This document shows, piece by piece, positions 1,591 through 19,284 of a stretch of 21,327 nt of DNA. Both the position numbers and the translations under genes were made by a program. The stretch is from a virus: positions 1 through 21,327 of the IMG/VR virus record IMGVR_UViG_3300021964_000667; one strand, written 5' to 3'. How positions within the stretch are numbered: position 1 is the first letter of the stretch; each line of letters starts with the position of its first letter. The notes below the pieces were generated by a model, which did no database searches, was not told the DNA's origin, and saw only the letters and a list, made by a program, of their open reading frames with translations.

Positions 1591-2984
1591 TGTCAACCAG
1601 GTATATACGATCAAATACAAAATCAAAATCTAGAATATTATCTCTCTTAATTGCAGATGATGGTGGTATTGAAAAAGCAGCTGTATCAGCTTTAGATTCT
1701 GATCAAGTTATATCTGTTATTAATGAAACCAGTTCCGGTTTTGATTCAGATCAGGTTGTTGCTATTATTGATGAAAATCCATCTCACCCAACCATTAGTG
1801 CAGCTAGTTCTGTTAACAACGGTGGTAGTTATTTTATTCAAGACATTACACTAGATGATAATGGTCACGTGACCGCAATCGCATCAGCGCTTGGTGGTGC
1901 AGGAACCCTGGGTAGTTATGTCAAGATCAATTCTACTAGTACAGCTGCATCTGCTACAGGTGGAGATGCAATTGCAATTGGTGAGAATGCAAAAGCTATA
2001 CAAGCAAGTGAAATCACAATTGGTAGCTTTGCAGGAGCCACAGTAACAGGTAGTTTTTATGGTGTGAATGTAGGTTATTATGCTGGACATCATAATAAAG
2101 GTAATTACAGCATCGCCATTGGCTATCAAGCTATGGGTAATCAATATAATTATACCGGTCAGACAGGTGCAAACAATATAGCGATTGGCAAGCTAGCTAT
2201 GACAACAAATACCGGTTCCAGTGGTAATGGTAACGTTGCAATTGGAGGTACAGACCATCTGACGGGAAATTTAGGCGTAATCACGTCTGGAAGTTTAAAC
2301 GTTGCTATAGGACAAAATGTAGGGCGGTTGATCACTACTGGTAGCGAGAATACACTTATAGGGACTTATAACGGAAACCATATTACAACCGGTAGTCGGA
2401 ACCTTGTAGTAGGACGTAATAATTTTAACAATTTGAATACTGGTAATGATAATATTTTAATCGGTGGAAGCTGTGGGCTTACGTCCGGACGATCTAGTGC
2501 AATTGTTATAGGTAATTCCTTGTATGACAAAGGTCAAAACACCGCCTATATTGGCGGTTCGACTGGAGCATACAATCAAGCAAATTCTTCGAGTTGGTCA
2601 ACAACATCAGATCAACGTATTAAGACCAATGTAACAGATTACACGACTGGTCTAACAATCCTTGATCAGGTAGATGTAAAAACTTACAACTATCTTTCTG
2701 ACTCTGATATTGCTACAGCGCATCCAGAATTAGCAGATAGCGATGGATTGGTTCATGAAAACCTTGATACAACTAAAACTGTTGTTGGTCTTATGGCTCA
2801 AGATCTCGAAACCTTGCTTCCAAATTCAGTTACTACAAGAGAAAATGGTATTAAGTCTGTTAACAAAGATGAACTGTTCTGGGTAATGTTAAACAGTATT
2901 AAAGAACTTAAAGCATTAAACGATGCTTTGACTGCATCAAACGAAGCTTTAACTGTTAGGGTTGAAGCATTGGAGAACAATTAA
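1590..2984 (+). CDS. Tail fibre/adhesin with Peptidase_S74 chaperone (paralogue of preceding gene)
   Basis: 464 residues. The start ATG overlaps the previous TAA by one base, and a TGGAG Shine-Dalgarno lies at 1577-1581 inside the preceding Leu-Glu-Asn-Asn codons. The N-terminus (about residues 1-30) is short and basic. It is followed by two DSDQV segments, a spacer, then (A/I)IG-type repeats at about residues 125-320 such as AIGENA, IGSFAG and VGYYAG, again like YadA-type head repeats. The S74 chaperone begins at SDQRIKTNV (codon at 2607) and runs to the end, with VVGLMAQDLE and a terminal helix that repeats its last segment (ALNDALTASNEALTVRVEAL). Autocleavage would free about 125 residues. 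The chaperone is highly similar to that of the upstream gene, whereas the shaft repeats differ, which fits a duplicated and diverging receptor-binding fibre. Target receptor unknown. Confidence 0.87.
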   Translation: MSTRYIRSNTKSKSRILSLLIADDGGIEKAAVSALDSDQVISVINETSSGFDSDQVVAIIDENPSHPTISAASSVNNGGSYFIQDITLDDNGHVTAIASALGGAGTLGSYVKINSTSTAASATGGDAIAIGENAKAIQASEITIGSFAGATVTGSFYGVNVGYYAGHHNKGNYSIAIGYQAMGNQYNYTGQTGANNIAIGKLAMTTNTGSSGNGNVAIGGTDHLTGNLGVITSGSLNVAIGQNVGRLITTGSENTLIGTYNGNHITTGSRNLVVGRNNFNNLNTGNDNILIGGSCGLTSGRSSAIVIGNSLYDKGQNTAYIGGSTGAYNQANSSSWSTTSDQRIKTNVTDYTTGLTILDQVDVKTYNYLSDSDIATAHPELADSDGLVHENLDTTKTVVGLMAQDLETLLPNSVTTRENGIKSVNKDELFWVMLNSIKELKALNDALTASNEALTVRVEALENN

Positions 2985-4762
2985 TGTCATCATCTAGAAC
3001 TAGATTGCTAGCATCGTTATTAAACGAATCAAATATTATTAAACCAAGCTTAGCACCTGCGTCATTAGAGGCGGGTAACGTTACTACATATTCATCTATC
3101 GACTCTCTACCATTAACAGGTAACACAAACGGGGATCAAGCTTTAATTACTTCCACAAATACATTGTATATTTTTAGTAATGGTTGGTATAAGATTGCTT
3201 TAATTAACTCTACACCATATTGGTCAACAGAAGCTGCTTCTAGTTATGATTTAAGTACAACAGGTGCATCAACCGTTATTACTATTTTAGCAACTGATAG
3301 CGAAGGTGTTCCTATTACATATACAGCTACAACAGATTCTGATTTTAATCAAATTGCAACTGTTACAAAAGATTCTGATAATGGTAGAACATTTACCATT
3401 ATACCTACAGATAGTGAGAACGGTCTTGCTGTAGCAGGTTCAGGAATTATTACGTTTAAAGCATCAGATGGTGTTAATTTAGTTTCAACATTAAGTACTT
3501 TTAGTATTACTTTTGATCCCAATTGGGCAAATCCTACTGGAACAAAGTTGGCAGTATCAAATCTATCCGCGGCTGATAGATATGGATTCAGTGTTGCAAT
3601 AAGCGGTGATGGTAATTATGCTATTGTTGGTTCTGAAAGGGAAGATACAGGAGGTGGTGATCGCGGCGGTGCCTATATCTATCTTAGATCTGGATCCTCG
3701 TGGTCAGAGCAGGCTCTTATACAAGCATCTGATGCTGCAAACGGTGACTACTTTGGAACTAGTGTATCAATCAGTACAAATGGAACTTATGCTATTGCGG
3801 GTGCATATGGAGTTGGCACTTTTGTAGGTGCAGCTTATGTTTTCACTAGGTCTGGTTCAACTTGGACGCAGCAAGCTAAGTTGACTGCATCAGATGCGCA
3901 AACTAGTGATTATTTTGGTGAACTTGTAGCAATAAGCGGTGATGGTAATTATGCTATTGTTGGAGCACAGTACGAAGATGGCGGATCGGGTGATCCAGCA
4001 TTGGATGCTGGTGCAGTGTATGTCTATGTAAGATCTGGTTCTAGTTGGTCAGAACAAGCAATATTGAGAGCATCTGATGCAGAAGCATCTGATCGTTTTG
4101 GCAATTCCATAGAAATAAATTCTGATGGCTCTTATATTATAGTTGGCGCGCGGTTGGAAGACACAACCTTTAGTGGGGCTGGTTCTGCATACATCTTTAC
4201 AAGATCTGGATCTACCTGGACACAACAGGCAAAGATTCAAGCTTCTAATGCTGGAGATGGCGACGGATTTGGTTATAGTGTTGCAATAAGCGGTGATGGT
4301 AATTATGCTATTAGTGGTGCTTTTTTCGAAGACACTGGAGGCAGTAATACTGGTTCAGCTTATATTTTCTCCCGATCCGGATCTACTTGGACTCAACAGC
4401 AACAGATTCAATCAACAAATGTTAATGATAATGATAGGTTTGGAACATGCGTATCTATGAATTCAGATGGTACTTATGTGGTAGTCGGCGCTGGTGATGC
4501 GCATATTGATAGTGACGGCATCAACAATATTGTTGATACTGGTCAAGGATATATCTTTAAAAGAGATGGTTCAACTTGGTCGCAGGTTGGTGTATTAACA
4601 GCACCTGATGCACAAGCATATGATAATCTTGGAGGGACAAGCCGTGCAGCTTCAATAAGTGATGATGGAGCATATGCAATTTTAGGTGCATGGAATGAAG
4701 ACGGTGGAGCAGGTGATCCATTATCTAATGCCGGTGCTGCATATATCTTCGAAGCAGGTTAA
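2984..4762 (+). CDS. Structural adhesin: cadherin/Ig-like domain plus seven-bladed FG-GAP-type propeller
   Basis: 592 residues. The ATG overlaps the previous stop in the same TTAATG arrangement, with TGGAG upstream. Residues 1-20 form a short N-terminal segment (RTRLLASLL). Residues about 33-78 form a compact module (YSSIDSLPLTGNTNG...GWYKIALIN), and about 80-178 a cadherin/Ig-like domain with GVPITYT and ASDGVNL. From about 195 to the end there are seven repeats with the pattern D-x-F-G-x-S-V-x-I-x-x-D-G-x-Y-A-I-x-G-A, ending in (A/S)Y(I/V)F-x-R-S-G-S-x-W. These look like FG-GAP blades, and seven is the number of a closed propeller. The integrin-type DxDxDG calcium loop is not evident. There is no signal peptide or enzyme motif. 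A virion surface protein, probably binding host glycans or proteins, is inferred from position and domain type. Confidence 0.75.
   Translation: MSSSRTRLLASLLNESNIIKPSLAPASLEAGNVTTYSSIDSLPLTGNTNGDQALITSTNTLYIFSNGWYKIALINSTPYWSTEAASSYDLSTTGASTVITILATDSEGVPITYTATTDSDFNQIATVTKDSDNGRTFTIIPTDSENGLAVAGSGIITFKASDGVNLVSTLSTFSITFDPNWANPTGTKLAVSNLSAADRYGFSVAISGDGNYAIVGSEREDTGGGDRGGAYIYLRSGSSWSEQALIQASDAANGDYFGTSVSISTNGTYAIAGAYGVGTFVGAAYVFTRSGSTWTQQAKLTASDAQTSDYFGELVAISGDGNYAIVGAQYEDGGSGDPALDAGAVYVYVRSGSSWSEQAILRASDAEASDRFGNSIEINSDGSYIIVGARLEDTTFSGAGSAYIFTRSGSTWTQQAKIQASNAGDGDGFGYSVAISGDGNYAISGAFFEDTGGSNTGSAYIFSRSGSTWTQQQQIQSTNVNDNDRFGTCVSMNSDGTYVVVGAGDAHIDSDGINNIVDTGQGYIFKRDGSTWSQVGVLTAPDAQAYDNLGGTSRAASISDDGAYAILGAWNEDGGAGDPLSNAGAAYIFEAG
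3596..4312 (+). repeat. Three identical 30-bp segments in alternate propeller blades
   Basis: The same 30 bases occur at 3596-3625, 3929-3958 and 4283-4312, 333 and 354 nt apart. They encode AISGDGNYAI in blades 1, 3 and 5; the even blades have different codons and residues. The spacing equals two blades, so the unit of duplication seems to be a blade pair. Identity at the DNA level indicates recent duplication or recombination between copies. Confidence 0.85.
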
Positions 4763-4765
4763 TCA

Positions 4766-6511
4766 ATGACAAAAGCTCGTACCATAGCAGGTCTTACTAA
4801 TATAGACAATACCGGTCTTAAAGCAGTTAGGTTTTCTCCTCCTGCAGGATCAGTAGCTGTTTATAGTACTATAGACGATTTACCTTTGTCAGGCAACACA
4901 AATGGTCAACAAGCTCTAATTACAGCTAGTAATTCTTTATACATATGGGATAGCGGTTGGTATAGGATTGCTATTATTAATGACTTTAACCCTCAATGGA
5001 TTATAGAGCCTGACAGTACATATAGTCTTGCTATTAACGGTACATCAACAACTATTACTTTAGTAGCTACTGATAGTGATAACATACCTATTTTATATTC
5101 TGTTATTACTGATAGCGATTTTGATTCGATTGCAACTATCTCTCATGATTCAGATAATCATAACGTATGGACAGTAGTACCTCTTGATAGTGAAAACGGT
5201 CTAGCTGTTGGTGGTACAGGTACAGTTACATTTAAAGCATCAGATGGTGTTAATTTAGTTTCTGCTTTAAGTACATTTACATTATCATTTGGTCCTAATT
5301 GGTCTGCACCCACTGAAAGTATTATTCGCCATCCAAATCCATCATCAGTTGATATGTTAGGGATGTCAACAAAGTTAAACAATGATGCAACATATCTTAT
5401 TGCATCTTTAGCTAATAAAAAAACTGGTGGTATTTTTACGCGGTCGGGATCAACTTGGACCTTACAAGATGAAATTTCCTTTACAAACTCTGGTATTATC
5501 TATGAAGCTACTATAAGCGATAATGCTGAATATGCTATTATTTCATCCTATGCTTATTTGGGTGATTCGCAAGACGTTTCCCTCGCTGGTGGAGCCTGGG
5601 TATTTACCAGATCCGGATCTAATTGGTCATTCCAATCAAGTCTTTACCAGGACAGTCTAATCAGTAACGGAAGGTTTGGATCTTCTGTCGCGTTAAACAG
5701 TGATGGAACTTATGCGTTTGTTGGTGAACCCTACGTCGGAGCAGATCATGTGTATGTTTATACTCGATCCGGATCTACATGGACAAAACAAGCTAAACTA
5801 CAAGCTTCGAATTACAGTGCAACTGATAACTTTGGTTTCTCTATTGATATAAACCCGGATGCTACCTATATTATTGTTGGCGCGCCATTTGAAGACTCGC
5901 CAGGTATAACTAATGCAGGTGCAGCTTATATCTTTACAAGATCTGGTTCTACTTGGACAGAACAAGCAATATTAAGAGCATCTGATGCACAAGCTAGTGA
6001 TAATTTTGGAAGCTGTGTTGCTGTATCGTCAGACTCAACATATGCTGTTATTGGTGCGCCATTTGAAGACGGTGGAGCAGGTGATCCAATATCTGATGCT
6101 GGTGCAGCATATATCTTTACAAGATCAGGTTCTACTTGGACACAACAAGCTAAGTTAGTAGCATCAGATCCAGGAGCAAATGATCGGTTTGGTGCAAATG
6201 TGGATATTAACTCCGATGGAACATATGCTGTTATTAGCGCACCGTTTGAAGATGGAGGTGCTGGTGATCCATTGTCTAGCGCTGGTGCAGCTTATGTATT
6301 TGAAAGAGACGGGTCTACTTGGACTGAAGTGAAAAAAATAACTGCATCTGATGCACAAGCAAGTGATAATTTTAGCGGTAATAGTAACTATGGTAGAGCG
6401 GTTTCAATAGATTCCGATGGTTCTTATTTAGCTGTTGGTGCTTATGGTGAAGATGGAGGTGCTGGTGATCCATTGTCTAGCGCTGGTGCGGTATACATCT
6501 ATGAAGCATAA
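4766..6511 (+). CDS. Structural adhesin, second seven-bladed FG-GAP-type propeller protein
   Basis: 581 residues, starting 3 nt after the previous stop; AGCAGG at the end of that gene is the only, weak, Shine-Dalgarno. The architecture copies the preceding gene: a short N-terminus, the YSTIDDLPLSGNTNG...GWYRIAIIN module (about 32-75), a cadherin/Ig-like domain (about 80-178, IPILYS and ASDGVNL) and seven blades (about 190-581). The first two blades are degenerate and lack the FG-x-S signature; blades 4-7 are close to one another (APFEDGGAGDP, AGAAYIFTRSGSTW). The Ig-like domains of the two genes are very similar, while the blades differ more, as expected for paralogues under diversifying selection at a binding face. 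A 41-bp segment in the last two blades is an exact repeat. The gene ends the adhesin block, and the next gene has its own late promoter. Confidence 0.75.
   Translation: MTKARTIAGLTNIDNTGLKAVRFSPPAGSVAVYSTIDDLPLSGNTNGQQALITASNSLYIWDSGWYRIAIINDFNPQWIIEPDSTYSLAINGTSTTITLVATDSDNIPILYSVITDSDFDSIATISHDSDNHNVWTVVPLDSENGLAVGGTGTVTFKASDGVNLVSALSTFTLSFGPNWSAPTESIIRHPNPSSVDMLGMSTKLNNDATYLIASLANKKTGGIFTRSGSTWTLQDEISFTNSGIIYEATISDNAEYAIISSYAYLGDSQDVSLAGGAWVFTRSGSNWSFQSSLYQDSLISNGRFGSSVALNSDGTYAFVGEPYVGADHVYVYTRSGSTWTKQAKLQASNYSATDNFGFSIDINPDATYIIVGAPFEDSPGITNAGAAYIFTRSGSTWTEQAILRASDAQASDNFGSCVAVSSDSTYAVIGAPFEDGGAGDPISDAGAAYIFTRSGSTWTQQAKLVASDPGANDRFGANVDINSDGTYAVISAPFEDGGAGDPLSSAGAAYVFERDGSTWTEVKKITASDAQASDNFSGNSNYGRAVSIDSDGSYLAVGAYGEDGGAGDPLSSAGAVYIYEA
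6248..6489 (+). repeat. Exact 41-bp direct repeat in the last two blades
   Basis: Positions 6248-6288 and 6449-6489 are identical over 41 bases, both encoding EDGGAGDPLSSAGA. The copies are 201 nt apart, one blade plus an inserted loop. No synonymous change separates them, in contrast to neighbouring blades, so recent unequal recombination or gene conversion is likely. Confidence 0.9.
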
Positions 6512-6541: not shown

Positions 6542-6549
6542 TATAAATA
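6542..6549 (+). promoter_or_regulatory. Late promoter TATAAATA
   Basis: Exact T4-type late promoter element in the 61-nt gap between the second propeller gene and the coiled-coil gene, with 23 nt between it and the ATG at 6573. In T4 this element is read by RNA polymerase carrying gp55 and gp33 on the gp45 clamp. Confidence 0.75.
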
Positions 6550-6572: not shown

Positions 6573-7862
6573 ATGGCATATAATTTCGATTCTGAATTTT
6601 ATCCACTTATGGTCCGCGTCGAAGCGGTCGGTAAAGGTATTATCGTTGATTTTCACGAGAACGATGATTGGGAAGGTGTATTTAGAGTAAATATTGATTC
6701 TGATTACATTGTTAATCTTATTGATTCTAGATTAACTGCTTCTTTAGATTCTGAAAATGTAGAAAATATGATTAATGAGCACTCTAAGTTTACTGATTCA
6801 GATCTTAAAGTTGTTGCAGATTTACGTAACGAGGTAGATCAATTAAGAGCAGATGCTGATTCTGATACAGTTCGCATTCAGACATTACAGACAAGAGTAG
6901 ATCAACTACAAGCACTACTAGATTCAGATCAAGCTAGCTTGTTAGATATTATTATTAGACTAGATTCTGATATGATAGCGATTGCTAATTTGAAACGTAA
7001 TGCTGATTCAGATGCTAATAGAATTAAAGCTCTTGTTTCTTCTCTAGATTCAGATGGTAGATTATTAGAAAAAGTTATTCAAAACGAATTTGATTTAGCT
7101 ATTCTTAAAGCAAGCCATGACTCAGATGACTCTGATTATAGATTGAAGTTCCGCACTCTTTCGATTGACGAAGATGCAATTAACGACATTAAAGCTAGAC
7201 TCGATTCAGATGAGCTTAGAATTCAAAGTCTATCTACTAGAATTACTAGATTAGAAAATGATATTGATTCTGAGATTCTATTTACAAAAGATAGACTCAC
7301 TACAGTTAGATTAAGATTAACTAGACTAGAAGATTCTGAATATTATGATTCTGATAGAGTAGTAAGAACTATTAACCTTAATAGATTAGATTTCGCTGAT
7401 AGTGATATTCTTTATTCAGCTATTACAAAAGAAACTAATTCTCATATCACTAGAATTATTAGATTAGAAAGTCTACTCGGTGTAGGCATTGCACAAGCAG
7501 CTACAGCGTTAACTGACTCCGATCTTAATCAAGTTGAATATACTCAGACAGGATCAACTTTATCAGCTGATACTAAAGTAACTTGGTATGTTTATAGTTT
7601 AGGTGGTGGTGAAATTATTAGCAGATCCTTTACAATAGGAGCAGGTTCTAGCTTTAATCAAGTATTAAGAACTATAGTATATACAGTTAATAACGATGCT
7701 GTAGCAATGAATTATTTTGATAAGTTTATAATGGATTATGATTCAGCGTTGGATAATGACGACACTATCCACTTTAGGTTTAAATCAGGGTTTGAAGACA
7801 TGACATTTGATGCTGTCGTAGAATCATCAGCAGACAACGGTAGGTTGCTTGTCTCGCAATAA
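6573..7862 (+). CDS. Coiled-coil virion protein with heptad-phased Asp-Ser-Asp motifs
   Basis: 429 residues, own late promoter, weak Shine-Dalgarno (GTAGAG at 6558-6563). I do not recognise a named family. Residues 1-40 form a small N-terminal segment (VDFHENDDWEGVFRV). Residues about 41-300 are almost entirely helical, with many D-S-D or D-S-E triplets. Those preceded by residues 74, 95, 116, 130, 144 and 158 are all in the same heptad phase; from 116 on, each DSD heptad alternates with a fully hydrophobic a/d heptad, so the second Asp falls on core position d. A second phased block follows at 182, 210 and 231. Residues about 305-429 form a C-terminal beta-rich domain (TKVTWYVYSLGGG, TIHFRFKSGF). 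Serine codons in DSD vary (TCT, TCA, AGT), so the motif is kept at protein level. Location between fibres and sheath suggests a fibre or whisker-type tail/neck component; this is inference. Confidence 0.7.
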   Translation: MAYNFDSEFYPLMVRVEAVGKGIIVDFHENDDWEGVFRVNIDSDYIVNLIDSRLTASLDSENVENMINEHSKFTDSDLKVVADLRNEVDQLRADADSDTVRIQTLQTRVDQLQALLDSDQASLLDIIIRLDSDMIAIANLKRNADSDANRIKALVSSLDSDGRLLEKVIQNEFDLAILKASHDSDDSDYRLKFRTLSIDEDAINDIKARLDSDELRIQSLSTRITRLENDIDSEILFTKDRLTTVRLRLTRLEDSEYYDSDRVVRTINLNRLDFADSDILYSAITKETNSHITRIIRLESLLGVGIAQAATALTDSDLNQVEYTQTGSTLSADTKVTWYVYSLGGGEIISRSFTIGAGSSFNQVLRTIVYTVNNDAVAMNYFDKFIMDYDSALDNDDTIHFRFKSGFEDMTFDAVVESSADNGRLLVSQ

Positions 7863-7869
7863 GAGAAAA

Positions 7870-7877
7870 AATAAATA
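7870..7877 (+). promoter_or_regulatory. Late promoter AATAAATA
   Basis: Matches NATAAATA, the relaxed late-promoter consensus of marine T4-like phages, with 25 nt to the sheath ATG at 7903. It lies directly after the stop of the coiled-coil gene, and a separate AGGAG Shine-Dalgarno is at 7892-7896. Confidence 0.65.
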
Positions 7878-7902: not shown

Positions 7903-9993
7903 ATGGCATTTTTAGTTAGCCCAGGTGTACAAATTGTAGAAAAAGATCTTACTAACATTATCCCAGCGGTGGCAACATCGATTGGTGGTTTTGCTGGTAA
8001 ATTCGAATGGGGTCCAGCGTTAGAAGTAACAACGGTATCATCAGAGAAAGATCTTCTTGCTAAGTTTGGATACCCAAAAGTTTCAACAAACGACGCTTCA
8101 AGCACAAGAGATGATTGGTATGCAGCAGCTAACTTTTTAGGTTATGCAAATCAATTACAAATTGTAAGAGCGATTTCAGACGGTGCAAGAAACGCTGCAT
8201 CAGAACCTGTAGTAGGTTCTGCAACAACTATTTCAGTTGTACTTGGTGGTATTGCATCGAGTTCAACATTCACTGTAGCGGTAGATGGTTCAACAACCGT
8301 TAGCGTTACTGCAGATGATCAAACAGATCTAGGGTCGATTGCTGCAGGTTTAGTTGATGCATTAGTAGCAGGTGGTTATAGTTCAGTAGCAATTGATTCA
8401 GATGGTATCGCAGGTATTGTTGATCCAACTGTTAAGTACGCTGCTTCAGGTTTAACCTTACCTGCAGCTCAGACTGTTAACGGTGTGACCTTTACATTCT
8501 TTGTTAACACAGATGCTTCTACAACTGCTGACACATTAACATCTGCGCAACTTAATAACCTTGACGACTTCTTAGTAGAAAAATCTACTCTTGTTAACGG
8601 TTCTGTGTATGCTAGATACCCAGGTATGTTAGGTAACAGTATTGGTATTATTATGATCGACGCGTCAATAGCTGACTCAGATTTTAAAAATACTGCTTTG
8701 TTTGGTTCAGTAAAAGGTGCTGATCTATTTGACACTTTACCAGGTACAAGTGTTTGGGGATCGAATTACACTACTGCGCCACAAGATGAAATGCATATTA
8801 TTGTTTATACAACAAATACATTAATTACTGGTAATGCAAATGAAGTGTTAGAGACGTATGGTTATGTTTCAAAAGCTAAAAACGCTAAGACAGCTGATGG
8901 TGGAGCTAATTATTATGTAGATGTTATCAATGATACCTCTAACTGGGTTTATTTGTTAAACGAAGAAACAGCAGCTCAGAGTGCTACAATCACAGGTAAC
9001 ACTACTATCGGTTCTTCTCTAACATCACTTACAGGTAATAGTAGATTTAATTATCTTTCTACTAATGCTTCTTTAGTTGGTGTTAGAAAGTATGCTCTTG
9101 ATGGTGGTGACGATGGTTTAACCGTAACAGATGGTAATTACACAGCTGCATATGATTTACTTGCAGATGACCAAGCTGTTGATGTTAATCTACTTATTAC
9201 TGGAGAAAGATCTAAAACTGTTAGCAAATATGTTATAACAATAGCAGAGACTAGAAAAGATGCAATTGCATTCTGCTCTCCTGACTATTCGTCAGCAGTT
9301 AATAATCCAACAGCGGCTAAAGTGATTAGTTACTATTCAGATTTTAATTCAACCTCGTATGCAGTATTCGATTCTGGCTATAAGAGACAGTATGATAGAT
9401 ACAATGACGAGTATTTCTGGATTCCACTCAACCCAGACACTGCTGGCTTAACTGCTAGAACTGAATTTACTAATGAAGCATGGTTCTCTCCAGCAGGTTT
9501 GAACAGAGGCTTTATTAATAATGTAGTTAAGTTGTCTTTCAACCCTAATCAAACTGATAGAGATCAACTTTACCCTCAAAGAATTAACCCTGTAGTAACC
9601 TTTAGAGGTCAGGGTACACTTCTTTATGGAGATAAAACAGCTTTATCTAGACCTTCAGCGTTCGATAGAATTAACGTTCGTAGATTGTTCATTGTACTTG
9701 AGAAAGCAATTGCTACAGCAGCTAAGTATCAGTTGTTTGAATTCAATGACGATCTTACAAGAAGAACTTTCGTTAATGCTGTCGAGCCGTTCCTTGCAGA
9801 AGTTTTAGCAAGAAGAGGTTTAACTGATTATAAGGTTGTTTGTGATACATCTAATAATACTGGAGAAGTTATCGACGGTAATAGGTTTGTTGCAGACATC
9901 TATCTTAAACCAGCTCGCTCAATCAACTTCATTACATTGAATTTTGTTGCAGTAAGAACTGGAGTATCATTTAGTGAGGTAGCAGGAGCATAA
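7903..9993 (+). CDS. 18: Contractile tail sheath protein gp18
   Basis: 696 residues, close to T4 gp18 (659). The N-terminus reads FLVSPGVQIVEKDLT followed by TSIGGFAGKFEWGP, the typical sheath start that forms the inter-subunit handshake strands. The C-terminal third (about 560-696) contains LYPQRINPVVTFRGQGTLLYGDK, RRLFIVLEKAI and VVCDTSNN...ADIYLKPARSINFI, all standard in phage sheaths. The middle (about 95-200) holds a Ser/Thr-rich beta insertion (TISVVLGG, TVSVTADDQTD) probably on the outer surface. The sheath polymerises around the gp19 tube and contracts to drive it through the envelope. AGGAG at 7892-7896 fixes the start. One base separates its stop from gp19, so both are made from the same message. 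Confidence 0.97.
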   Translation: MAFLVSPGVQIVEKDLTNIIPAVATSIGGFAGKFEWGPALEVTTVSSEKDLLAKFGYPKVSTNDASSTRDDWYAAANFLGYANQLQIVRAISDGARNAASEPVVGSATTISVVLGGIASSSTFTVAVDGSTTVSVTADDQTDLGSIAAGLVDALVAGGYSSVAIDSDGIAGIVDPTVKYAASGLTLPAAQTVNGVTFTFFVNTDASTTADTLTSAQLNNLDDFLVEKSTLVNGSVYARYPGMLGNSIGIIMIDASIADSDFKNTALFGSVKGADLFDTLPGTSVWGSNYTTAPQDEMHIIVYTTNTLITGNANEVLETYGYVSKAKNAKTADGGANYYVDVINDTSNWVYLLNEETAAQSATITGNTTIGSSLTSLTGNSRFNYLSTNASLVGVRKYALDGGDDGLTVTDGNYTAAYDLLADDQAVDVNLLITGERSKTVSKYVITIAETRKDAIAFCSPDYSSAVNNPTAAKVISYYSDFNSTSYAVFDSGYKRQYDRYNDEYFWIPLNPDTAGLTARTEFTNEAWFSPAGLNRGFINNVVKLSFNPNQTDRDQLYPQRINPVVTFRGQGTLLYGDKTALSRPSAFDRINVRRLFIVLEKAIATAAKYQLFEFNDDLTRRTFVNAVEPFLAEVLARRGLTDYKVVCDTSNNTGEVIDGNRFVADIYLKPARSINFITLNFVAVRTGVSFSEVAGA

Positions 9994-9994
9994 T

Positions 9995-10621
9995 ATGACC
10001 GTACGTATTGACGATTTTAAGACGGCCTTAGCAGGCGGCGGCGCGAGAGCGAATCTATTTAGAGTAAATTGTAATTGGCCTAATGGTAACATTCAAGGTC
10101 AAGCCAACTCACCTTTTGGTGCAGGTGAAACAGAAGCTTTAAGTTCATTCATGATTAAAACAGCGGCAATGCCAGCAAGAACAATCGGTGAAGTAATTGT
10201 ACCGTTCAGAGGTAGACAATTAAAAGTATCTGGTGATACAATCTTTGATGCTTGGACTGTACAGGTTATTAACGATAATAACTTTGCTGTAAGAAACGCT
10301 TTCGAAAGATGGCAGGATGCGATTAATGGCGCCGCAAACAACGTATCAGGAAGAGGTGTAGACGCTGCTTCTTTCGATTCATACACTTCTAATATGGAGA
10401 TCGAACAACTTAGCCGTAATGGTTCAGTTATTAAAAGATACGTTATTGTCGGGGCTTGGCCTACTGTTGTAGATACAATTGATGTATCATATGATAGTAC
10501 AGATACAATTGAAGAGTTTGCTGTTACGTTTGCATATCAGTGGTGGGAGGCTAATACTACAGAAGTATCAACTACAGCTAGAACCACATCTGATATCAAC
10601 CCTGTACCCGTAACACAATAA
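9995..10621 (+). CDS. 19: Tail tube protein gp19
   Basis: 208 residues versus 163 in T4. Family hallmarks are the early LFRVNCNWPNG strand, the TAAMPARTIGEVIVPFRGRQLKVSGD core, FDAWTVQVINDNNFAVRNAFERW, and the ending DTIEEFAVTFAYQWWE followed by a Thr-rich tail. It polymerises as hexameric rings forming the inner tube that carries DNA. The start lies one base after the sheath stop, with AGGAG at 9984-9988 inside the sheath gene. Its stop codon abuts the hairpin that covers the portal ribosome-binding site. Confidence 0.95.
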   Translation: MTVRIDDFKTALAGGGARANLFRVNCNWPNGNIQGQANSPFGAGETEALSSFMIKTAAMPARTIGEVIVPFRGRQLKVSGDTIFDAWTVQVINDNNFAVRNAFERWQDAINGAANNVSGRGVDAASFDSYTSNMEIEQLSRNGSVIKRYVIVGAWPTVVDTIDVSYDSTDTIEEFAVTFAYQWWEANTTEVSTTARTTSDINPVPVTQ

Positions 10622-10645
10622 ACTCTTCATTACATAATGAGGAGT
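10622..10645 (+). promoter_or_regulatory. Hairpin sequestering the portal Shine-Dalgarno
   Basis: A 10-bp stem pairs 10622-10631 with 10636-10645 around a 4-nt ACAT loop: nine Watson-Crick pairs plus one G-U wobble (10626 with 10641). The 3' strand contains GAGGAG (10639-10644), the Shine-Dalgarno for the ATG at 10650. The 5' strand starts on the base after the gp19 TAA, so a ribosome terminating on gp19 would open the stem. This predicts translational coupling and low portal output. Confidence 0.75.
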
Positions 10646-10649
10646 CCTT

Positions 10650-12248
10650 ATGGCTATACAAAAAGAAGAACTATTCGGATTTGAATTAGTTCAGAATAAA
10701 ACTGATAAACCTGTACCATCACCCATTCCTCAACCAATGGATGATGGTACTGACCTACCTGTCGGTGGTCGTATCGGTTATACATATGAGCAATATAGTA
10801 AAGCAAGAAACGAACATGCTCTCATTGCTCAATATAGAGATATAGCTTTCTACCCTGAAGCTGATTCAGCTGTTGATGATATTGTAAACGAAGCTTTCAC
10901 TACAGAACATGAAAGACCTTCAGTATCTATTCGTTTAGATTTACTTAATATTGATGATAGAATTAAAGAAACAATTAGAGAAGAGTTTAAAAATACTCTA
11001 CACTTATTAAAGTTTCAAAGACGCTCTTATGATCTTTTCCGTCAATGGTATATCGATGGAAGAGTTTACTTTCAAGTTATTATTGACCCTAACAACCCTA
11101 AAAACGGTATCAAAGAATTAAGATCTATCGACGCTTTAAAAATTAAGCGACATGTAAAACCTTTCTATGAAAAAGATTCTAGAACCGGTGTACCTGTCCT
11201 TACTAAAGTAGAAGAGTATTTTGAATATTCACCCGATGGTGGTAACAATGGTGTTAAACTTTCTAAAGACTCTATTGTATTCTGTCCTTCAGGTTTAGTG
11301 GATAGAAATAAAGGTATGATTGTTGGTTATTTAGACAAAGCAATTAAACCTTTTAACAATTTACGTTCTATGGAAGATGCTCTTATTGTTTATCGTATTG
11401 CAAGAGCACCAGAAAGAAGAATCTTTTATGTTGATGTAGGTACATTACCTAAGATTAAAGCTGAAACATATCTACGTGATATGATGAATAGGTATAGAAA
11501 TAAAATTGATTACAATCCCAACACAGGAGAAATTCGTGACTCTAGAAAGTTTATGTCACTCCTTGAAGACTTCTGGCTCCCTCGTAGAGAAGGTTCGCGC
11601 GGTACAGAAATTTCGACATTACCAGGAGGACAAAATCTTGGAGACCTTGATGACGTTAATTACTTCAAAGAAAAGTTGTACCAGTCACTCAACGTACCAA
11701 TCTCAAGAATCAACCAAGACAACAACTTCCAACTCGGAAGAGCATCAGACATTTCAAGAGACGAAATAAAATTTAGTAAGTTTATTAAACGTCTAAGAAA
11801 ACAATTTGCTGAAGTTTTTAATGAAGTACTTAGAGTTCAATTAGTACTTAAAGGTGTATGTACACAGGCTGAATTCGAAGAGATGAGACAATACATCTCA
11901 TTCGATTATCTTAAGGACATGCATTTCGATCAGTTAAAGCAAGTAGAGCTTCTTAATGATCAATTAAGTGTATTGAGAGACGCGTCTGAATATGTTGGTA
12001 AATATTTCTCAATTGAGTATGTACGTAAAGTAATCCTAGGTCAAACAGAAGAAGATATTGCTCGTATTGATGCTGAGATTATGAATGAAATGGAAAAAGA
12101 ACAAATTAAAGATCCAGATAATCAAGGTGATTTTAATTTTGAACATGTAGAATTACCAGGACCTAAGATTGTACCATCAGGACAAAAAGATGTTCTTACA
12201 ATAAATACTGAAACAGAGATTGTGGAGCACGATGCCGCTACCTTATAG
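10650..12248 (+). CDS. 20: Portal vertex protein gp20
   Basis: 532 residues, near T4 gp20 (524). Characteristic segments are IGYTYEQYSKARNEHALIAQYRDIA and PEADSAVDDIVNEAF near the N-terminus, the YFQVIIDPNNPKNGIKELR region, IARAPERRIFYVDVG, and the highly conserved LPRREGSRGTEISTLPGG...FKEKLYQSLNVPISRI around residues 310-355. Twelve copies form the ring at one capsid vertex that starts prohead assembly, docks the terminase and connects to the neck. The gp20 terminal coding sequence contains a NATAAATA element and overlaps the start of the next gene by 17 bases. Translation may be restrained by the hairpin over its ribosome-binding site. Confidence 0.96.
   Translation: MAIQKEELFGFELVQNKTDKPVPSPIPQPMDDGTDLPVGGRIGYTYEQYSKARNEHALIAQYRDIAFYPEADSAVDDIVNEAFTTEHERPSVSIRLDLLNIDDRIKETIREEFKNTLHLLKFQRRSYDLFRQWYIDGRVYFQVIIDPNNPKNGIKELRSIDALKIKRHVKPFYEKDSRTGVPVLTKVEEYFEYSPDGGNNGVKLSKDSIVFCPSGLVDRNKGMIVGYLDKAIKPFNNLRSMEDALIVYRIARAPERRIFYVDVGTLPKIKAETYLRDMMNRYRNKIDYNPNTGEIRDSRKFMSLLEDFWLPRREGSRGTEISTLPGGQNLGDLDDVNYFKEKLYQSLNVPISRINQDNNFQLGRASDISRDEIKFSKFIKRLRKQFAEVFNEVLRVQLVLKGVCTQAEFEEMRQYISFDYLKDMHFDQLKQVELLNDQLSVLRDASEYVGKYFSIEYVRKVILGQTEEDIARIDAEIMNEMEKEQIKDPDNQGDFNFEHVELPGPKIVPSGQKDVLTINTETEIVEHDAATL
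12200..12207 (+). promoter_or_regulatory. Late promoter AATAAATA inside the portal gene
   Basis: Exact NATAAATA match within the last codons of gp20 (encoding Thr-Ile-Asn-Thr), with 24 nt to the ATG at 12232, the same spacing as the intergenic late promoters in this window. It could give the neck and core genes a transcript that bypasses the portal hairpin. Confidence 0.5.
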
Positions 12249-15190: not shown

Positions 15191-15198
15191 TATAAATA
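15191..15198 (+). promoter_or_regulatory. Late promoter TATAAATA
   Basis: Exact T4 late element starting on the base after the gp21 stop, with 19 nt to the gp22 ATG and GGAG at 15206-15209 between them. It probably drives gp22 and, by read-through, gp23. Confidence 0.8.
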
Positions 15199-17128: not shown

Positions 17129-18640
17129 ATGTCAACCGATGTCCTTATGGAAAAGTGGGCGCCAGTAATCAACCACGAAGATCTCTCAGCAATTAATGAG
17201 AGAGACAAGCGTGCAGTTGTTGCTCAGGTCCTTGAAAATACTGAAAAGGCATTACGTGAAGAGGCAGGTATCCTTGACGAATCATCCATCTCAGGCGCTG
17301 GCTTCGGCGGTGCTTTCTCAGGTGCAGGTAGCAACTCTACCATTAATGCAACTGGGCGTGCTGGATATGATCCGATCATTATCTCACTCGTACGTCGTGC
17401 AATGCCACAAATGATGGCTTTTGATCTTTGTGGTGTACAGCCAATGTCAGCTCCAACTGGGTTGATCTTTGCGCTTCGTGCACGTTATCAAGATTCAAAC
17501 ACAAACGATGATGGTCGTGAAGCATTCTACAACGAAGTCTTCCCGAACTTCTCAGGTACAGCGTTTAATGGCGATGCTCCAACACATGGTGCAGGTTCAG
17601 GTTCAGCTGCAGATACAAATCCATTTAACCCAGGTCGTGCATCTAACGAAGGTGCTTCTGGTTCAGATGGACCATCTGATTACGCAGGTGTTAACTTTGT
17701 TAACGACCCGTTTAGTAATGACTCAGGTAATGATCCGGCATTAGACAGACGTGTAATTGCAGGTGACGATCCAGAATCAGGTAACTACAACCCAACAATG
17801 CCAGGCGCTGGTGGTGGTACATCACCTTATGGTATGACTACCAGAGAAGGTGAAGGGGACAACTTCCGTGAAATGTCATTCACAATCGAACGTACAGCTG
17901 TCGAAGCAAAGACACGTGCGCTCAAGAGTGAGTACACCATGGAATTGGTACAAGACCTTAAAGCTGTTCATGGTTTAGATGCAGAAGCTGAGTTGTCAAA
18001 CATCTTGTCAACTGAGATCCTTGCTGAAATCAACCGTGAAGTTGTTCGCACAATGGTTAGCCAAGCTAAGTATGGTGCAGACGGTTTAACAAATAACGGT
18101 GTATTTGATCTCATTGCTGACGGTCAAGGCCGTTGGTCAGTTGAGCGTCAAAAAGGTCTTATGCTACAGCTTGAAAAGGAAGCTAACAAAGTTGCTTTCG
18201 AAACTCGCCGTGGTAAAGGTAACTTCGTACTTTGTTCTGCAAACGTTGCTTCTAGCTTGACAATGGCTGGTCTTCTTGACTACTCATCAGGCTTGAACGA
18301 TAACTTGAATGTTGATGTAACTTCAGGTGTATTTGCTGGTACATTGAATGGTCGTATGAAAGTTTATGTTGACCCATATGCAACTGCAGGTGATTATGCT
18401 GTCGTTGGTTATAAGGGTTCAAACAACATGGACGCGGGTATGTTCTATTGCCCATACGTTCCGTTGCAAATGGTACGTGCAGTTGCACAAGAAACTTTCC
18501 AGCCAAAGATCGGCTTTAAGACTCGCTACGGCATGGTCTCAAATCCTTTCGCAGCTGGTGCTGGAGCAATCCAGTCACAGGGTCTTGCAGCAGCAAACTC
18601 AAACGTTTACTATCGCAAGTTCCGTATCGACAACGTATAA
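17129..18640 (+). CDS. 23: Major capsid protein gp23 (precursor)
   Basis: 503 residues from the ATG at 17129 (T4 gp23: 521). The TTG at 17111 is in frame but AGGAG at 17117-17121 is the ribosome-binding site of the ATG. Typical segments are MEKWAPVINHED at the start, PIIISLVRRAMPQMMAFDLCGVQPMS, the FTIERTAVEAKTRALKSEY strand, MELVQDLKAVHGLDAEAEL, and GFKTRYGMVSNPF near the end. Residues about 165-235 are a Gly/Ser/Asn/Asp-rich insertion, probably surface exposed. LDE at 49-51 is a plausible gp21 cleavage site removing the N-terminal delta region. Arginine is almost always CGT/CGC here but AGA in neighbouring genes, as expected for the most abundant protein. No exact late promoter precedes it; a strong terminator follows. 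Confidence 0.97.
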   Translation: MSTDVLMEKWAPVINHEDLSAINERDKRAVVAQVLENTEKALREEAGILDESSISGAGFGGAFSGAGSNSTINATGRAGYDPIIISLVRRAMPQMMAFDLCGVQPMSAPTGLIFALRARYQDSNTNDDGREAFYNEVFPNFSGTAFNGDAPTHGAGSGSAADTNPFNPGRASNEGASGSDGPSDYAGVNFVNDPFSNDSGNDPALDRRVIAGDDPESGNYNPTMPGAGGGTSPYGMTTREGEGDNFREMSFTIERTAVEAKTRALKSEYTMELVQDLKAVHGLDAEAELSNILSTEILAEINREVVRTMVSQAKYGADGLTNNGVFDLIADGQGRWSVERQKGLMLQLEKEANKVAFETRRGKGNFVLCSANVASSLTMAGLLDYSSGLNDNLNVDVTSGVFAGTLNGRMKVYVDPYATAGDYAVVGYKGSNNMDAGMFYCPYVPLQMVRAVAQETFQPKIGFKTRYGMVSNPFAAGAGAIQSQGLAAANSNVYYRKFRIDNV

Positions 18641-18658: not shown

Positions 18659-18688
18659 AAAGAGGCAGCTTCGGCTGCCTCTTTTTTT
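18659..18688 (+). terminator. Intrinsic terminator after gp23
   Basis: Perfect GC-rich hairpin: AGAGGCAGC (18661-18669), TTCG tetraloop, GCTGCCTCT (18674-18682), extended by two A-T pairs and followed by a T run to 18688. UUCG-closed stems are very stable. It isolates the capsid message from the next operon. Confidence 0.95.
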
Positions 18689-18690
18689 AT

Positions 18691-18698
18691 TATAAATA
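18691..18698 (+). promoter_or_regulatory. Late promoter TATAAATA, 4 nt before the start codon
   Basis: Exact TATAAATA two bases after the gp23 terminator T run. With T4 geometry the transcript would begin about 6 nt downstream, at the ATG at 18703. No Shine-Dalgarno precedes that ATG, so a leaderless mRNA is predicted. Confidence 0.65.
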
Positions 18699-18702
18699 TA
18701 AT

Positions 18703-19284
18703 ATGGCATTATCTTATAGTACAGTATCATCTAGAATCCCAGAGCTATCTTATGTAGCTCCACATAATTTTTATGCAGTAGCAGAAAATTTACCAAGTGT
18801 TGTATTCAACTTACAACAGTTATTAATACCTAATGTTACTGGAGGTGAAGTACCTTTAGCAAATAGATTCAATTCAGGTAGAGCTTATATACCAGGTAAT
18901 GGGGTAGATTATTCTTCTTTAGATTTTACTTTTTTAATTGATAAAGATTTTAATAATTATAGATCTGTATTAAATTGGCTTAAAGCTATTAACCATCCTG
19001 AATCTCACGATCAATACACTGATTACACTACAAGTGCTAACGCTGTTAATCAAGAAGGTTTTGGAAGAACAATGTCAAATATTACTGTCTTTGGTTGTGA
19101 TGACGGAAATAACCCATTAGTGCATTGGAATTTTGTTAACTCTTTTCCTATCAGTGTAGATGGACCACAGTATGATGCAACCTTACAAGATATTAATTAT
19201 ATAACAAGCACAGTTTCATTTAGATATTTGTATTTTGAATCACAAACATATACAGATGGTAAATTAAACAACGATAAAATTTAA
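18703..19284 (+). CDS. Putative tail-tube-fold structural protein (gp19-like paralogue)
   Basis: 193 residues. The start follows a TATAAATA element by 4 nt and has no Shine-Dalgarno; the next in-frame ATG is far downstream, so this start stands. The protein shows features of the tail-tube fold: an early LPSVVFNLQQLLIPNVTGGEV strand region, a GVDYSSLDFTFLIDKDFNNY strand followed by the RSVLNWLKAI helix, and an ending (NSFPISVDGPQYDATLQDI then TVSFRYLYFE) that parallels the gp19 ending (GAWPTVVDTIDVSYDSTDTI then AVTFAYQWWE). Candidate roles are a tail terminator, tube-baseplate junction (gp54/gp48 type) or minor tube protein. The fold assignment is by eye and the precise role is not determined. 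First gene of a tight operon running to 20557. Confidence 0.6.
   Translation: MALSYSTVSSRIPELSYVAPHNFYAVAENLPSVVFNLQQLLIPNVTGGEVPLANRFNSGRAYIPGNGVDYSSLDFTFLIDKDFNNYRSVLNWLKAINHPESHDQYTDYTTSANAVNQEGFGRTMSNITVFGCDDGNNPLVHWNFVNSFPISVDGPQYDATLQDINYITSTVSFRYLYFESQTYTDGKLNNDKI

Follow-up and report, generated by a model that had tools for sequence, protein, structure and literature searches.

The record IMGVR_UViG_3300021964_000667 is a 21.3-kb fragment of a T4-type phage (21,327 nucleotides, the whole of which is referred to here as the window), and at the junction between its tail tube gene, of the gp19 type, and its portal gene, of the gp20 type, lies a hairpin that contains the entire ribosome-binding site of the portal gene (Table 1). 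An earlier note, made from the sequence alone, had described a 10-bp stem with an ACAT loop and an occluded GAGGAG directly after the gp19 stop, and folding of positions 10600-10670 confirmed each of these features, with 10622-10631 pairing to 10636-10645 in 10 pairs, one of which is U-G (10626-10641). The start given in that note was also correct, whereas its end at 10649 was four bases too far, since the stem ends at 10645 and the following CCTT (10646-10649) is an unpaired 4-nt spacer before the portal ATG. Counted from the tube stop, the 5' arm occupies nucleotides 1-10 and the portal Shine-Dalgarno (SD) sequence nucleotides 18-23, and every base of the SD is paired.

Table 1. Features of the window around the tube/portal junction and along the late genes.
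Feature	Position	Strand	Remarks
Late-promoter-like AATAAATA	7870-7877	+	ahead of sheath gene; closest conserved late motif 5' of tube and portal
Sheath gene	7903-9993		
Tail tube gene (gp19 type)	9995-10621	+	phrog_45, E 1.5e-53; stop TAA 10619-10621
Hairpin 5' arm ACTCTTCATT	10622-10631	+	from first base after tube stop; RNA form ACUCUUCAUU
Hairpin loop ACAT	10632-10635	+	RNA form ACAU; TTAT, ATAT or TTACAT in relatives
Hairpin 3' arm AATGAGGAGT	10636-10645	+	entire portal SD inside; RNA form AAUGAGGAGU
Portal SD GAGGAG	10639-10644	+	all bases paired
Portal gene (gp20 type)	10650-12248	+	phrog_213, E 5e-185; start ATG at 10650
Late-promoter-like AATAAATA	12200-12207	+	near end of portal gene; next conserved motif
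Head-tail adaptor	from about 12229		
Head maturation protease	14525		
Scaffold	15218		
Major head protein	about 17129-18640		
Terminator	18659-18684		

The minimum free energy of the 10600-10670 region is -15.1 kcal/mol (z -3.3), a value reached by 1 of 200 dinucleotide shuffles, and the hairpin alone is predicted at -10.1 kcal/mol at 37 C, falling to about -15 kcal/mol at 15 C, all of these folds being computed without ribosomes or transcription. The portal SD is unpaired with a mean probability of 0.009, the lowest of the 19 gene starts in the window (next lowest 0.168), and among those starts it also has the strongest predicted pairing with the 16S 3' end (-8.3 kcal/mol). A Rho-independent terminator was considered for this stem and rejected, because no U-run follows it (the next letters are CCTTATGG) and it is not among the predicted terminators of the window. 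A covariance-model search of the window against Rfam gave no match.

To follow the hairpin through evolution, 20 further contigs, all metagenomic, were collected by tube or portal protein homology, and their portals are 84-94% identical to that of the window where a long stretch could be compared. The near relatives are contigs of uncultured viruses, the portals of sequenced phages being less than 60% identical to the window portal, and no portal relatives were found in bacterial and archaeal genome contigs, so that these give no clue to the host. The hairpin is present in 20 of the 20 relatives, its 5' arm begins 0-1 base after the tube stop in all of them, and nine bases of that arm, CTCTTCATT, are invariant across the 21 sequences, in keeping with the earlier note's proposal that selection keeps the structure. 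By comparison, the fourfold-degenerate sites of three flanking coding sets are invariant at only 2/25, 20/104, and 6/38 positions (8-19%), and divergence at such sites between the window and its relatives is 0.33-0.43; nine invariant sites would arise by chance with a probability of about 1e-5 to 1e-10 if sites are taken as independent. The loop, which has several forms, and the spacer vary among the relatives, and in one lineage that carries GAGGGG the change in the 3' arm turns a UA pair into UG with the pair kept. A comparable noncoding stretch, the sheath leader, retains its late motif and most of its SD in seven sequences and is otherwise variable. The SD accounts for the constancy of the 3' arm but not for that of the 5' arm, so that selection on the 5' arm is clear, and the sequence comparison shows that the hairpin is not a chance fold.

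The arrangement of late promoters around the junction is also conserved, where late promoters are defined as motif matches whose role is taken from T4. The form (A/T)ATAAATA is kept before the sheath gene in the six of six relatives checked, and late motifs recur in the relatives at matching offsets from the portal start, at about -4.1 kb, at -2.8 kb (the sheath leader), at +1.55 kb (the end of the portal gene), and at +2.6 kb and beyond. No late motif was found in the clade between -2.8 kb and +1.55 kb, and the promoters found ahead of both the tube gene and the portal gene in many other T4-type contigs were not seen in the clade of the window. If the motif marks late promoters as it does in T4, the sheath, tube, and portal genes would appear to form one late transcript, and promoters would therefore not set the tube and portal genes separately, leaving translation as the place to set the tube:portal ratio. 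Exact copies of TATAAATA occur on the + strand of the window only at 6542-6549, 15191-15198, and 18691-18698, all in short intergenic gaps, and these precede an open reading frame at 6573, the scaffold gene, and a second tube-like gene, for which they are likely late promoters.

We think it rather probable that the element is an SD-sequestering intercistronic hairpin in a sheath-tube-portal late mRNA, and that only a fraction of tube terminations lead to portal synthesis. This reading is directly supported by the pairing, by the burial of the SD, by the selection on the arm, and by the absence from the clade of a late-promoter motif from sheath to portal. In the naked RNA the portal SD would be locked in the 10-bp stem and free 30S subunits would rarely start there. 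In a cold sea the stem would hold more firmly (about -15 kcal/mol at 15 C), and initiation without a ribosome arriving from the tube gene should be uncommon. A ribosome halted at a stop codon covers about a dozen downstream bases, so one at 10619-10621 would cover the whole 5' arm and not the SD. Such a ribosome would take the 5' arm into its mRNA channel and melt the stem, while the SD, lying beyond its reach, would be left open and unblocked, with portal initiation then amounting to a fraction of tube terminations. This opening by termination, which is proposed together with a low level of uncoupled initiation, is suggested by the geometry of the junction and by known coupled systems.

The earlier note had also proposed that the occluded site sets the ratio and timing of the two proteins, and with the SD buried, the arm at the stop and kept by selection, and the portal gene of the clade lacking its own late motif, translational control of the ratio would be the natural reading. 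In T4 the portal nucleates the prohead, and given this role and the imbalance between 138 tube and 12 portal subunits, it would be sensible for portal to be made as a fraction of tube. The T4 tube has 138 copies of its subunit (PMC3004832), and the T4 portal is a dodecamer (PMC9958956). The accompanying claim that over-production of portal harms T4 head assembly is not supported as it stands, since no such statement was found in the open-licence literature; what PMC9958956 reports is only that proheads fail to expand when the portal has been pre-expressed out of context.

A fold of equal 28-nt stability occurs at eleven places on the + strand of the window, so energy alone is insufficient, and the hairpin is significant because of its position over the SD and its conservation rather than its fold energy. 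Some observations weigh against the SD-sequestering interpretation. Formal counting found 95.5% of the alignment cells in the clade to be paired but no compensatory double changes, which the earlier note had suggested seeking in related phages; with an invariant 5' arm the pairing is not proven by covariation, and the support therefore comes from purifying selection. Moreover, among the nearest relatives outside the clade L104 and L335-L338 do not have an SD-burying stem, and L261 has only a 5-bp version in which a stop-adjacent CTCCT pairs with AGGAG. The eleven equally stable folds might favor a hairpin arising by chance, but the 5' arm is conserved against saturated synonymous sites and the relatives contradict this explanation, which we consider extremely improbable.

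The same pairing, accessibility, and conservation data would also fit a hairpin that acts as a static damper, in which slow opening of the stem gives a fixed low level of portal initiation independent of tube ribosomes, and the unusually strong SD looks as if it balances the stem. The arm, however, lies 0-1 base from the tube stop in all relatives, and a terminating ribosome must cover it, which makes coupling hard to avoid wherever the message is translated and leaves such a damper rather unlikely in our judgment. A role in mRNA stability or processing, with the hairpin protecting the 3' end of the sheath-tube mRNA or marking a cleavage site and its overlap with the SD a by-product of the short gap, finds some encouragement in other T4-type phages, which have hairpins after the tube gene that do not cover the SD, several with strong covariation. 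We regard it as distinctly unlikely here, given that the clade stem is exactly complementary to the SD, that no hairpin is kept elsewhere in the gap, and that, although any sequence would serve such a purpose, outside the SD core the 5' arm shows no change matched by a compensating one in the 3' arm. The hairpin might also be a timing switch of the type found at T4 gene e, a known arrangement (PMC3014915) in which the SD is hidden on readthrough RNA and free on a short RNA made from a late promoter within the hairpin. A late motif does lie within the hairpin at the tube/portal junction of many T4-type contigs, and TATAAT-like letters occur in the loop of some relatives (GTAACA/CATAAT in the window), but the clade junction has no TATAAATA-like motif, although that motif is conserved at neighboring genes, and RNA initiated from the loop letters would begin only where the SD ends and so lack the site, so that a switch of this kind seems very improbable. 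Nor do we put much weight on an operator for a trans-acting repressor, such as the portal protein, that reads the sequence of the arm: the arm is indeed fixed in sequence and not just in pairing, but the SD constraint together with pairing is enough to fix it, and the loop, where such repressors usually make their main contact, is free to vary, making an operator highly unlikely.

In the portal tree the SD-burying form makes up one clade with support of 100/100. The SD is buried in 14 of the 14 distinct clade junctions (unpaired probability 0.009-0.143), whereas the 158 other distinct T4-type junctions have a median SD accessibility of 0.50, with none below 0.05. The earlier note had taken homologous phages with no pairing potential as grounds for rejecting its proposal; such homologues exist outside the clade, with portals 73-80% identical to that of the window, while inside it all 20 relatives are paired. 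Because homologues beyond the clade do not have the pairing, the SD-burying hairpin is a clade-specific solution and not a general T4-type rule. A separate case is the junction at L107:1086-1137 (the same as in L179), where a 9-bp stem, CATTTTCTC with GGGAAAATG, unrelated in sequence to that of the window, directly follows the tube stop and covers the SD in the junction fold, though less tightly in a longer context (0.29 unpaired). This case has the same architecture but is independent and weaker, and it comes from a single contig. In the same junction AATAAATA lies between the two arms of the stem.

Other designs are found at this junction elsewhere among T4-type phages. One group of viral contigs has a GC-rich stem 15-20 nt after the tube stop in which 8 of 9 pairs have changed on both sides and which is followed a few bases on by a T-run, and a second group has a post-tube stem with such changes in 5 of 10 pairs. 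T2, KVP40-type, Aeromonas, Acinetobacter, Serratia, and Enterobacter phages have post-tube stems that exclude the SD, an annotated Rho-independent terminator follows the tube gene in the S-CRM01 record, and S-CAM22, S-RIM8, and Pelagibacter phage Mosig have no stem at the tube/portal junction. In the enteric phages hairpins also occur at the sheath/tube junction, so that the feature there is not special to tube/portal. These post-tube hairpins or terminators occupy the same junction, and the same place relative to the tube stop, as the window hairpin, but they leave the portal SD outside and often are followed by a U-run or have a late promoter inside.

This last form is widespread in marine contigs, many of which have TATAAATA or a close form of it inside the junction hairpin, as in L316, where the promoter-in-hairpin reads GGGGGTGTC-TATAAATACTATAAG-GACATCCCCC. 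The late motif lies in a strong hairpin about 34-53 nt before the portal start in L316, L289, L293, L332, L260, L214, L325, and others, and a U-run sometimes follows. Among 82 junctions with a late motif, the local fold has z < -2 in 52 and z < -3 in 34 when compared with shuffled flanks, and the alignment of 17 promoter-in-hairpin junctions has both-side changes in 5 of 8 pairs, which supports the pairing. The other late motifs of 26 contigs, about 650 nt upstream before the tube gene or 1500 nt downstream after the portal gene, are almost never in a stem of this kind; these contigs were chosen for their promoter-in-hairpin, and only the contrast within each contig counts as evidence. A count of enclosing pairs was uninformative (62 observed, 47 expected), since shuffled G-rich and C-rich flanks pair anyway, and the comparison was made instead by an energy z-score and against the unstructured late motifs elsewhere in the same contigs. 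Tentatively, the tube/portal boundary could be a fixed control point of T4-type phages run by interchangeable devices, with a promoter-in-hairpin in many marine lineages, where the tail readthrough RNA would fold and the portal and head genes would start afresh; the window clade may have lost its tube and portal promoters and shifted the hairpin onto the portal SD, so that control at this boundary passed from transcription to translation. The comparison also shows that related phages have different control devices at this gene boundary, among them a putative late promoter set within a hairpin.

Translational coupling through an intercistronic hairpin is classically known from RNA-phage replicase and from ribosomal-protein operons. 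Like those hairpins, the one in the window closes a downstream SD with a stem that should be melted by a ribosome coming from upstream, with the difference that the opening event here would be termination at an abutting stop. The stop is placed for a ribosome to melt the 5' arm yet free the SD, a geometry conserved with a shift of 0-1 nt, and the hairpin probably works like a coupling hairpin and is a putative member of that class. Control by SD-burying hairpins is itself established in T4 (PMC3014915, PMC2988022), where the SD or start codon of e, soc, 49, and I-TevI is sequestered by an RNA helix on long transcripts (PMC3014915; PMC2988022). The window resembles these cases in being from a T4-type phage and in having a late gene on a longer transcript with its SD in a stable stem formed with an upstream arm. 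In the T4 cases, however, a late promoter bypasses the hairpin, whereas the window clade has no late motif between the sheath leader and the end of the portal gene, and its hairpin has a 4-nt loop and an arm that abuts the stop of a cotranscribed structural gene. The absence of the motif, together with the arm abutting the tube stop, fits coupling rather than promoter bypass. No description of a hairpin at the tube/portal junction was found in the open-licence literature. How phages balance about 138 tube subunits per 12 portal subunits from neighboring genes on one message is a question of gene dosage, and a conserved 24-base element with pairs that can be broken and restored makes the tube:portal ratio testable.

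Most matches to the arm pattern across viral contigs were unrelated coding sequence, and one independent case looks regulatory. In that case, unrelated phage contigs (L028:11044-11065, L051:6628-6649, and L063) have an SD-covering hairpin with arms CTCTTCATT/ATGAGGAG, and a shorter-loop form with the same arms occurs at L037:7074-7093 and L062:4118-4137, the location being between a CI-like repressor gene and a nuclease-like gene that appears by eye to be of the YqaJ type. In the window itself, two adjoining long genes at 2984-6511 (592 and 581 amino acids) contain repeated units of the GDGNYAIVGA/FTRSGSTWTQQAKL type, the first of them (592 amino acids) without a PHROG match, and the second tube-like gene, which also matches phrog_45, lies at 18703-19284, 3' of the terminator of the major head protein gene.
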